A stretch of 64,000 nucleotides of DNA from Curtobacterium poinsettiae (GTDB lineage Bacteria > Actinomycetota > Actinomycetes > Actinomycetales > Microbacteriaceae), in assembly GCF_025677645.1 (NCBI RefSeq), contig NZ_CP106879.1, positions 2,232,001 through 2,296,000 on the forward strand, read 5' to 3'. Numbering within the stretch: the stretch's first letter is position 1; each line of letters starts with the position of its first letter. Positions 28,608-34,516 of the stretch are shown piece by piece. The translations under genes and the position numbers were made by a program. The notes beneath the pieces are model-generated. The model was not told the origin of the DNA. It saw nothing but the letters and a program-made list of their open reading frames with translations, and did not search any database.

Positions 28608-29867
<1,260 letters not shown>

Positions 29868-29873
29868 GCCGGC

Positions 29874-31133
29874 ATGCGCTTCTTCATCCCGATCCTGATC
29901 GGGCGGATCCTCCGTGCCCTCGCCCGCGCGAGGGGCGGCGGGTCCGCCTACCCCGGGTACATCGTCCTGAAGCTCGTGCCGGACTTCCTGCAGCACGTGA
30001 CGAAGCAGTTCCCGAACGGCGTCGTCTTCGTGCTCGGGTCGAACGGCAAGTCGACGACGACGCACATGATCTCCGACATCGTCCGGGCGCACGGGCTGCG
30101 GGTCTTCACGAACCCGTCCGGCGCGAACCTGCCGCAGGGCATCGCGTCGGCCCTGCTGTCCGAGGTGTCGCTGACCGGGCGGCTCAAGGCCGACATCGGC
30201 ATCCTCGAGGTGGACGAGGCCTTCGCGGTCGAGCTCGCCGGCATCCTGTCGCCCTCGACGGTGACGATGCTCAACGTGCAGGTCGACCAGCTGTACCGGT
30301 TCTTCGAGACCGAGCGCGTGGCGACGATGATGCTCGACACCGCCGCACTGTCGACGGCGAACGTCATCACGAACCACGACGACCAGTTCCTCGATGGCTA
30401 CTCCGGCACCCCCGGGCAGCGCGTCCTGCGGTTCGGTGCGAGCGACGAGGTCATCGCCGCGGCACCGAACGGCCTGCAGAACGCCGACTCGTTCGACGCC
30501 GGTGACCGTGCCCAGCACACCGCCGACGCCGAGGTCGTGGCCCACACTGGTGACGGCGCGACGATCCGCTTCGACGGCGCCGAGATCCCGGTCCGGCTGC
30601 CCGCCCGCGGCCTGCACTACGCGGTCGACGCCGCTGCGGCCACCGCGACGGCCAGTGCGGCCCTCGGCGCGCAGTTCCGTGCCGACGCCGTGACCAAGGC
30701 CTTCGGCACGATGAAGCCCGCCTACGGCCGCGGAGAGCGTCTGCCGATCGCGGGTGAGTCCGCCGAGTTCACGATGTTCAAGAACGCCGCGAGCCTGCAG
30801 CTCAACCTCGACGCCCTGCCGGACCAGCCCGAACAGGTCCTCATGGCGATCGACGAGGGCACGCCCGACATCTCCTGGATCTACGACATCGACTTCTCGA
30901 AGCTCGACCACGTGGACGTCGTCTCCGGGGACAAGGCGTGGCAGATCGCGATCGCGCTCGAGCACGCCGGTGTCCGCATCGGCCGGGTCGAGCCCGACGT
31001 CGAGGCAGCCATCAAGCACATGGAGCAGCTCGGCTCGACGACCCGCGGGACGAAGAACTTCATCGTCAACTACGAGATCATGATGATCGCCCGCAAGGCC
31101 CTGGGCCACCCGGACATGGAGAAGACCGCATGA
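29874..31133 (+). CDS. MurT-like Mur ligase (DUF1727), lacking the zinc ribbon
   Basis: MurT is the ATP-using subunit of lipid II isoglutaminyl synthase, which amidates the D-Glu of lipid II with ammonia from GatD. This 419-aa protein has a hydrophobic N-terminus, the ATP loop VLGSNGKSTTTHM (about residue 55), the TNPSGANLPQGIAS segment, EVDEA, NVQVDQLYRF and the C-terminal DUF1727 domain with MKPAYGRGER, LNLDALPDQPEQVLMAI and the catalytic-Asp motif DISWIYDIDF. The CxxC...CxxC zinc ribbon inserted in the central domain of characterised MurT is absent; the protein has no Cys at all. It overlaps the GatD-like gene by 4 nt. Amidation of peptidoglycan is therefore expected from family but not assured. 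Confidence 0.85.
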   Translation: MRFFIPILIGRILRALARARGGGSAYPGYIVLKLVPDFLQHVTKQFPNGVVFVLGSNGKSTTTHMISDIVRAHGLRVFTNPSGANLPQGIASALLSEVSLTGRLKADIGILEVDEAFAVELAGILSPSTVTMLNVQVDQLYRFFETERVATMMLDTAALSTANVITNHDDQFLDGYSGTPGQRVLRFGASDEVIAAAPNGLQNADSFDAGDRAQHTADAEVVAHTGDGATIRFDGAEIPVRLPARGLHYAVDAAAATATASAALGAQFRADAVTKAFGTMKPAYGRGERLPIAGESAEFTMFKNAASLQLNLDALPDQPEQVLMAIDEGTPDISWIYDIDFSKLDHVDVVSGDKAWQIAIALEHAGVRIGRVEPDVEAAIKHMEQLGSTTRGTKNFIVNYEIMMIARKALGHPDMEKTA

Positions 31134-31903
31134 CGGCCGACCGGCTGACCATCCTGCACGTCTACCCCCGGCAGATGGGCGTCTCGGGTGACCGTGGCAA
31201 CGTCGCGGCCCTGGCCCGCCGTGCGGCCGCCGCGGACATCGAGACCCAGGTCCTCGAGTACGCGCCCGGTGACGAGCTTCCGACCATGGCGGACGTCGTC
31301 GTGATCGGCAACGGACCGCTCAGCGCGATGCGTTCCCTGGGTGACGACGTCACCCGCATCGGCGGCGCGCTCCGTGCGTTCGCGACCGATGGTGTGCCGG
31401 TGCTCGCCGTCGGCGGTGGGTTCGACCTCGCGACGAACGAGGTCGTGCCGACCGAGGGCGGGCCGGTCGCGGGCTTCGGCGTGTTCGACGCCCGAGCCGT
31501 CCGTGGTGCCGAGCGCCGCGTGAACTACTTCGTCCTCGAGACCCGGTACCCGCTGCTCCCCGGCGCACCGAAGCGTCTCGCCGGCTTCGAGGACCACGCC
31601 ACCACGATCGAGCTCGCGGCCGGGGTCAGCCCGTTCGCCGACGTCGTGTCCGGTGGCGGCAACCAGGCGGGAGCCCCGGTCGAGGGTGCGATCGTCGGCA
31701 CGTCGTTCGGCACACACACGCAGGGTCCGATCCTGCCGCTCAACCCGCAGCTGACCGACGGTGTCCTCGCCGCGGCCACCGCACGGCTGGGCCGCGAGTA
31801 CGCGCCGGACCCGGAGCAGACGGCGACCATCGACCGCTACGCACGCGAAGCGCGCGCGACGGTCGACCGCTACGTCGACAAGGCGTTCAAGCGCATCGCC
31901 TGA
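31130..31903 (+). CDS. GatD-like class I amidotransferase with the nucleophilic Cys replaced
   Basis: GatD normally hydrolyses glutamine and hands ammonia to MurT. The 257-aa protein keeps the fold markers: HVYPRQMGVSGDRGNVAAL at the N-terminus, VVVIGNGPLSAM, the glutamine-site region VLAVGGGFDLATNE, FGVFDAR, GFEDHATTI and the catalytic-His region GTHTQGPILPLNPQLTD. In GatD the nucleophile elbow reads like AxCGGYQ; here it reads AVGGGFD, with Gly95 where Cys is required. No Cys exists anywhere in the protein. Glutaminase activity is therefore predicted to be lost. The ATG overlaps the MurT-like stop (ATGA), so the pair is co-translated, and both partners have lost their Cys. A perfect hairpin terminator follows. 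Confidence 0.85.
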   Translation: MTADRLTILHVYPRQMGVSGDRGNVAALARRAAAADIETQVLEYAPGDELPTMADVVVIGNGPLSAMRSLGDDVTRIGGALRAFATDGVPVLAVGGGFDLATNEVVPTEGGPVAGFGVFDARAVRGAERRVNYFVLETRYPLLPGAPKRLAGFEDHATTIELAAGVSPFADVVSGGGNQAGAPVEGAIVGTSFGTHTQGPILPLNPQLTDGVLAAATARLGREYAPDPEQTATIDRYAREARATVDRYVDKAFKRIA

Positions 31904-31997: not shown

Positions 31998-32222
31998 CTA
32001 CTTCGACTCGTAGAGTCGGCTGCTCTCGTCGTGCCACTCGATGGCGGTCGCCGCGAGCTTGTCCTTGAACTCGGCGCCGTGGTGGGCGCAGAAGTAGAGC
32101 TCGCCGCTCGACATGGTGGCTCGGATGTAGGCCTGCGCCCCGCAGCTGTCGCAACGGTCGGCGGCGGTCAGCTGGTGGTTGCTGACTTCGTCGATGGAGG
32201 GGTCCTGCACGGTCTGGGTCAT
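31998..32222 (-). CDS. DUF7455 small zinc-binding protein
   Basis: A 74-aa protein with LTAADRCDSCGAQAYIRATM and GELYFCAHHGAEF, giving one CxxC and a CxxH pair that can bind a zinc ion. It matches the small actinobacterial DUF7455 family found between sigA and the topoisomerase IV or gyrase genes. Function unknown. The ATG at 32222 begins MTQTVQDP; an in-frame ATG five codons upstream lacks a better ribosome site, and GAGGAGC precedes the chosen start. It is divergent from parE with 167 bp between starts. Confidence 0.88.
   Translation of the reverse strand: MTQTVQDPSIDEVSNHQLTAADRCDSCGAQAYIRATMSSGELYFCAHHGAEFKDKLAATAIEWHDESSRLYESK

Positions 32223-32389: not shown

Positions 32390-34516
<2,127 letters not shown>

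Follow-up and report, generated by a model that had tools for sequence, protein, structure and literature searches.

Gene pair between sigA and parE

The window analyzed here is a stretch of 64,000 nucleotides from the genome of Curtobacterium poinsettiae (NZ_CP106879.1, positions 2,232,001 to 2,296,000), and our subject is a pair of genes within it that resembles murT and gatD. The murT-like gene (29874..31133, stop included, + strand) starts with ATG and encodes a Mur ligase of 419 amino acids. The gatD-like gene (31130..31903, + strand) encodes a protein of 257 amino acids without the glutaminase residues, and its start overlaps the murT-like stop in the sequence ATGA. Both assignments are based on the open reading frames, on Pfam and on AlphaFold2 models (predicted local distance difference test, 87.4 for MurT and 88.0 for GatD). 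The pair occupies a slot bordered on the left by sigA (28608..29867, + strand; open reading frame, likely start given) and on the right by a small gene (31998..32222, − strand; open reading frame), which we take to be DUF7455-like, and by a gene for a parE-like topoisomerase subunit (32390..34516, + strand; open reading frame and homology).

Pfam matches over the cut-off were Mur_ligase_M and MurT_C in the murT product and GATase_3 in the gatD product. The MurT-like protein exceeded the gathering scores of PF08245 (41.2 vs. 24 bits) and of MurT_C, PF08353 (36.8 vs. 25 bits), which places it in the Mur ligase superfamily. Both proteins missed the NCBIfam equivalog cut-offs (MurT, 90.8 of 800 bits; GatD, 55.1 of 400 bits); the GatD cut-off does not discriminate within the order, where none of 248 genomes passed it, and the MurT model was applied to the window protein, not to those 248 genomes. 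The best PDB matches of the MurT model by E-value were MurT and then other Mur ligases, and the best match of the GatD model was S. aureus GatD. The closest named homologs were from Curtobacterium, with 91% identity for the best named row and 83 to 91% for most. The complete genome (3.76 Mb, 100% complete) contained a single MurT_C match and one strong MurT. A second, canonical murT/gatD copy, for which a preliminary description of this DNA had proposed a check, was not found in a genome-wide search.

Loss of the glutaminase residues

Residue positions given below are on the + strand and were placed by alignment. When aligned with S. aureus GatD (6gs2), the nucleophile elbow TICGGY is replaced by AVGGGF in the window protein, so that Cys94 corresponds to Gly95 (codon GGC, 31412..31414); this confirmed the elbow AVGGGFD reported in the preliminary description. 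All 71 pairs assigned to the canonical class have the Cys. A second loss, absent from that description, affects the catalytic His189 of S. aureus, which is replaced by Gln198 (31721..31723; GTYLHGPILP to GTHTQGPILP). In S. aureus, the substitutions C94G or C94S abolished amidation (PMC6085368, PMC6113224). For the Asp of the DISWIYD motif, previously read as a sign of an intact MurT, a role as third member of the glutaminase triad has been proposed in S. aureus (PMC6113224). The glutaminase of the window pair is thus predicted to be disabled.

Two further arguments of the preliminary description were correct as observations and were dropped as evidence. Neither protein contains Cys; with 3.3 Cys expected in the 676-residue pair (0.49%, from 62 called genes of the same genome), total absence is near chance (P = 0.037 for none). 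The MurT-like protein also lacks the Cys4 zinc ribbon, and its joint loss carries no weight since, among 58 canonical MurT relatives from the order, 50 had no CxxC, a crude test for the ribbon. The ribbon is present in a subset of MurT only (PMC6113224). On this comparison, the missing ribbon is unrelated to the elbow change.

Residues lost, kept and gained

Residues were compared between 71 canonical pairs and 85 pairs without the elbow Cys (Cys-less pairs); L119 and L138, both divergent, did not enter this comparison. GatD Tyr19, which corresponds by alignment to the channel-plug Tyr30 of S. pneumoniae, was present in 71/71 canonical and 0/85 Cys-less pairs, and is Ser19 in the window (31184..31186). 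Gln/Glu63, Cys95 and Tyr196 of GatD were also lost in Cys-less pairs, and Asp21, Asn24 and Arg129 were retained. MurT Arg137, which aligns with the gate Arg135 of S. pneumoniae, went from 71/71 to 0/85, being replaced mostly by Val, Ile or Thr (Val137 in the window, 30282..30284). Asn327, next to the DNAAD motif, was found in 65 of the 71 canonical sequences and in no Cys-less sequence (Asp or Gly instead); the window has Asp327 (30852..30854). In a 12-row alignment, most of the Cys-less sequences had a loop at the DNAAD position that was shorter by three residues.

The ligase core was kept. K59, T61-63, N85, E112 and R286 exceeded 90% in both groups, the first four of these entries covering the ATP loop, acceptor and Mg residues; Asp114, Glu115, Asp332 and the ATP loop itself were also common to both MurT groups. 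The ATP loop of the window protein, GSNGKSTTT (30036..30062), is intact, as previously described. Some MurT residues became nearly invariant in the Cys-less group: His248 (85/85), Asn311 (85/85; 30804..30806; mostly other residues in canonical pairs), Asp252 (84/85) and Glu or Asp401 (84/85; Glu in the window, 31074..31076; Thr in 71/71 canonical pairs). Ser307 (83/85), Gln88 (82/85) and Gln309 (82/85) were further near-invariant residues of this group. Glu401 was not placed with certainty relative to MurC, MurD and MurF of the same genome, the profile alignment being too weak at the C-terminus.

Because Cys, channel Tyr and gate Arg were lost together, the ligase core was kept and new near-invariant residues arose, a functional change is favored over erosion. 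On the residue pattern, the ammonia route is lost and something else is gained. The view that loss in both subunits marks a coherent change thus stands on these residues, and its zinc ribbon part fails. At Asp252 (30627-30629), Asn was found in 71/71 canonical sequences. The corresponding region of Mur ligases presumably contacts the nucleotide base, and the nucleotide preference of the Cys-less MurT may have changed.

Distribution of the Cys-less form

A draw of 248 genomes from the whole order gave 86 genomes with a match to the canonical GatD model, and 40 stretches were fetched; 16 of 75 matching genomes from outside the Microbacteriaceae were left unfetched, and nine drawn genomes of this family gave no match. 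From other families, 59 loci were read, of which L043 had no MurT, leaving 58 pairs. The elbow Cys was absent in 12/12 Microbacteriaceae loci (including that of the window) and retained in 58/58 pairs from other families, a difference far beyond chance.

A search of 199 Microbacteriaceae genomes with a Cys-less GatD profile matched 161, in 67 of 76 genera. The elbow Cys was absent in 87 of 100 nonrepeated family pairs (66 Gly, 12 Ala, 4 Ser, 2 Thr, 2 His and 1 Asn), and 13 kept both Cys and His; the frequency is biased, since most pairs were taken at about one per genus from the Cys-less profile search, which favors that form. The repeats L001 and L101 were left out of the 100, as was L043, and the window copy L072 was counted once. 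Four of the 13 Cys-keeping pairs share a genome with a Cys-less pair (G294, G304, G384 and G419), and in G294, G304 and G419 it is the Cys-less copy that adjoins racemases or parE. The other nine were the only MurT found in their genomes, including the Leucobacter-like G259 and the Lysinibacter G268. In G384, which belongs to the genus of the window, the second murT/gatD pair (L155) has the canonical Cys and His and a long branch; it was possibly acquired.

The Cys was absent in all 96 homologs among the matches listed for a Cys-less query, Clavibacter and Microbacterium included, and in 120/120 Agromyces-type GatDs among the matches listed for such a query. A quick tree built from 174 MurT sequences grouped 102 Cys-less rows in one clade (Shimodaira-Hasegawa-like approximate likelihood ratio test, 100), with four divergent rows apart on a long branch. 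In the set of loci inspected for gene order, the two genes were adjacent and on the same strand wherever both were present. The Cys-less elbow, whose conservation in a clade had been proposed as a check, is a character of the Microbacteriaceae clade and not decay.

Other ligases in the same slot

No MurT was found in 26 of 57 selected family genomes. The slot was read in 13 of these and contained a protein of the F420_ligase (CofE) family of approximately 230 amino acids in 13/13, together with an ATPgrasp_ST protein of approximately 340 amino acids in most. In total, 19 of the 26 hold a CofE-like gene (13 read in the slot and six by search; the other seven are without it or outside that search), and the genomes without MurT, at first sight counter-evidence, were therefore not counted as such. 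In L200 to L212, the genes between sigA and parE are CofE-like (PF01996) and ATPgrasp_ST (PF14397). These slot genes look like further wall-ligase candidates in Microbacterium and its relatives.

Of the 199 genomes, 28 carried the CofE-like gene (at least 375 bits), 151 carried MurT (E below 1e-60) and none carried both (Fisher test, P = 1.6e-21, which ignores shared ancestry). CofE matches of 125 to 154 bits were set apart (G369, a genome with MurT, and G293 and G351, with a divergent MurT-like gene), and those under 30 bits were ignored. Both kinds occur within eight genera (g2, g3, g90, g92, g133, g148, g150 and g155), and exchange has therefore happened repeatedly. ATP-grasp (E below 1e-30) was found in 34 of the 199 genomes, including 25 of the 28 with a CofE-like gene. 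It excludes MurT less strictly, because eight genomes with ATP-grasp hold a MurT-like gene, mostly divergent (G263, G276, G338, G347, G354, G390, G395 and G429); G259 gave a weak match.

A third, very divergent MurT/GatD-like pair, with the elbow FTHNA, was seen in L119, L138, L269 and L271. A divergent pair shares the slot with an ATP-grasp gene in Schumannella and two other loci (L269, L271, L312), and in L314, where sigA is off the stretch, such a pair has a weak CofE-like gene as its neighbor.

Two paired alanine-racemase-like genes, a short one and a long one, adjoin the CofE-like and ATP-grasp genes and also many of the Cys-less pairs. In L033, L200 and others, the short gene consists mainly of the C-terminal domain and the long gene has a weak C-terminal domain; the tandem may form a heteromeric diamino-acid racemase. 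A tandem alanine-racemase pair is also present elsewhere in the genome of the window. The diaminobutyrate-2-oxoglutarate transaminase EctB exceeded its equivalog cut-off of 552.2 bits in L195 (a MurT/GatD locus) and L202 (a CofE-like/ATP-grasp locus), with 594.8 and 603 bits.

The slot was empty in all nine fetched genomes with only a canonical pair (the slot of G308 is not among these), and in G225 (genus g5) it held an unrelated ABC transporter.

A further sample consisted of named loci, the best 80 of 586 relatives of a Microbacterium-like parE, of which 72 have sigA on the stretch and eight do not. The 72 slots comprised 44 with MurT (GatD seen in 43), 20 with CofE-like and ATP-grasp genes, one with a CofE-like gene alone, two with a divergent MurT/GatD pair and ATP-grasp, and five that were empty. 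The empty ones were all from outside the Microbacteriaceae (two Sinomonas, Arthrobacter, Tersicoccus and one Micrococcaceae bacterium), outgroups that we take to have type-A walls. All 46 GatDs beside parE (43 slot GatDs, two divergent ones and that of L298) were without the Cys (39 Gly, 5 Ala and 2 His). Racemase-like genes were present in the slot of 26 of the 65 named loci with a MurT or CofE-like gene. Microbacterium species fell into both kinds: M. resistens, M. aurantiacum and M. aoyamense were of the MurT/GatD type, and M. maritypicum, M. murale, M. testaceum, M. indicum, M. yannicii, M. jejuense, M. luticocti and M. schleiferi were of the CofE-like/ATP-grasp type.

Discussion

In group B peptidoglycan, the kind found in the Microbacteriaceae, an amino acid is carried on the D-Glu α-carboxyl. 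Curtobacterium is presumably of type B2β with D-ornithine (D-Orn). The link described in Clavibacter, where D-diaminobutyrate (D-Dab) joins D-Glu to D-Ala (PMC9603630), fits the group B arrangement. Among relatives, published descriptions give a B-type wall with Dab in Rhodoluna (PMC4156110), D-Lys B2β in Frigoribacterium, Dab B2γ in Cryobacterium, Orn B2β in Frondihabitans, Dab B1α in Lacisediminihabitans and L-Lys with structure not known in Lysinibacter (Table 3 of PMC7033078), B2γ with Dab in Subtercola (PMC5945732), D-Orn, L-Lys or Dab in Microbacterium (PMC10757982), and cross-link type B with Dab in Leucobacter (PMC4804768). The MurT reaction activates and amidates the D-Glu α-carboxyl (PMC6113224). 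Since MurT and the group-B bridge share this carboxyl, the simplest reading is that the bridge amino acid has replaced ammonia as the amine. There is good support for a changed ligase reaction, and the earlier suggestion of a different reaction with GatD kept as a partner gains from the joint residue losses, the kept core, the new near-invariant residues and the other amide ligases in the same locus of related genomes. That the window pair ligates the bridge amino acid to the D-Glu α-carboxyl in place of ammonia is, in our judgment, fairly probable.

Under this proposal, MurT would use ATP to activate the D-Glu α-carboxyl in the lipid-linked precursor, as its kept residues and the known MurT reaction suggest, and the dead GatD would supply no ammonia. 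Instead, an amino acid would enter the MurT active site and be coupled there to D-Glu, so that it forms the first residue in the interpeptide bridge of group B. The presumed substrate is probably D-ornithine in Curtobacterium, and would be D-diaminobutyrate, D-lysine or glycine in relatives. GatD could be a structural partner or could use the pocket that once bound glutamine to hold the amino acid. The slot between sigA and parE would be a bridge-building locus in which CofE-like and ATP-grasp ligases can take the place of the pair, close to racemases and, in some cases, to a diaminobutyrate synthase. The wider proposal, to which we give somewhat less than an even chance, is that the ligase of this group-B bridge locus has repeatedly been exchanged among three unrelated enzyme families (MurT with a dead GatD, CofE-like and ATP-grasp), that the racemases make the D-diamino acid, and that the dead GatD has become the subunit that presents the amino acid in a Mur ligase of a new kind.

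Several observations weigh against the assignment to the bridge. The catalytic His was retained in 45 of 89 Cys-less GatD rows (two rows being repeats) and in 118 of 120 Agromyces-type Cys-less GatDs among the matches listed. Both Cys and His were kept in 120/120 Leucobacter-type GatDs among the matches listed, and in the Leucobacter-like G259 and G330 the slot is empty, their canonical pair lying elsewhere in the genome; with its type-B wall, Leucobacter thus indicates that group-B walls can be made without the Cys-less pair. The idea that every group-B wall needs the pair accordingly fails for Leucobacter, and this and other lineages with an empty slot must use something else for the bridge. 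G264 and G291 had neither MurT nor a CofE-like gene, and their slot was empty. Motif classes around Asp327 and Glu401 did not match the diamino acid cleanly, and a rule equating the two fails because Subtercola (Dab) and Frondihabitans (Orn) fall into one class. EctB was found in only 2 of 28 longer loci and in none of the 80 named loci, which are a nonrandom sample, and no racemase or Dab gene is adjacent to the window pair.

Continued amidation of D-Glu, or of another carboxyl, with free cytoplasmic ammonia and GatD as a scaffold only would agree with the kept ligase core, and some amidotransferases with a dead glutaminase can use free ammonia. Ammonia use, one of the two options of the preliminary description, is nevertheless disfavored by the altered gate Arg, channel Tyr and DNAAD loop and by the near-invariant residues that arose; it also conflicts with the need of the group-B bridge for the D-Glu α-carboxyl and leaves the CofE-like and ATP-grasp ligases beside racemases unexplained. 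The S. aureus C94G and C94S proteins were inactive in vitro, an argument against ammonia use if ammonium was supplied in that assay. We regard this explanation as highly improbable. A wall amino-acid ligase acting on another bond, either that of a second bridge residue or one at another stem carboxyl, would account for the divergent MurT forms that co-occur with ATP-grasp; moreover, two ligases, CofE-like and ATP-grasp, replace the pair in 20 named loci, so that the locus may make more than one bond. Nonetheless, the closest known MurT reaction is at the D-Glu α-carboxyl and the residues for ATP and acceptor are conserved, which makes another bond unlikely.

The pair might also act outside the wall, as a small-molecule or protein ligase, with the slot as a general insertion site behind sigA. 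The ABC transporter of G225, the group-B wall that Leucobacter makes without the Cys-less pair, and the other substrates that we take to be known for the CofE and ATPgrasp_ST families are in line with this. Against it are the MurT homology, the racemase-like and Dab-synthase neighbors, the mutual exclusion with the CofE-like gene and an occurrence confined, among the genomes read, to a family whose walls are of group B, and we consider a role outside the wall very unlikely. Decaying relics or a sequencing artefact, for which nothing speaks beyond the missing catalytic residues, are scarcely credible: dozens of genera share the form, its reading frames are open, its genes are adjacent on the same strand and it has gained near-invariant residues, and conservation across the family refutes this reading.

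Group-B peptidoglycan, cross-linked from D-Glu, is a long-standing taxonomic marker. The literature searched, which most subscription journals lay outside of, named no enzyme for the first group-B bond, and it contained no link between the Cys-less MurT/GatD and the group-B bridge. The pair is a concrete candidate for this enzyme, with alternative ligases for the same locus. If bridge ligation is its reaction, it would be a natural case of an amidotransferase turned amino-acid ligase.

Comparison with known systems

The window pair shares with the MurT/GatD lipid II isoglutaminyl synthase of S. aureus and S. pneumoniae both folds, the gene order and coupling, the ATP loop and the acceptor and Mg residues. 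It differs from these enzymes in lacking the nucleophile Cys, the catalytic His, the channel Tyr, the gate Arg and the zinc ribbon, and in having a shorter and altered DNAAD loop, the near-invariant H248, N311 and E401, and a slot beside sigA. The middle and C-terminal domains of the window MurT are common to MurC-F and to the archaeal pMurC and pMurE; template modeling scores of its model, normalized by query, reached 0.66 against structures of MurF and pMurE and ranged from 0.50 to 0.65 for the MurT structures listed. Unlike MurC-F and pMurC/pMurE, it has no N-terminal UDP-binding domain and is paired with a GatD-like protein. CofE (F420-0:gamma-glutamyl ligase, PF01996) and ATPgrasp_ST (PF14397) of other Microbacteriaceae resemble the window pair in being ligases of the same slot, whereas they belong to different protein families; the one CofE-like slot protein that matched the CofE equivalog scored 30.3 vs. 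180.65 bits, below the cut-off.

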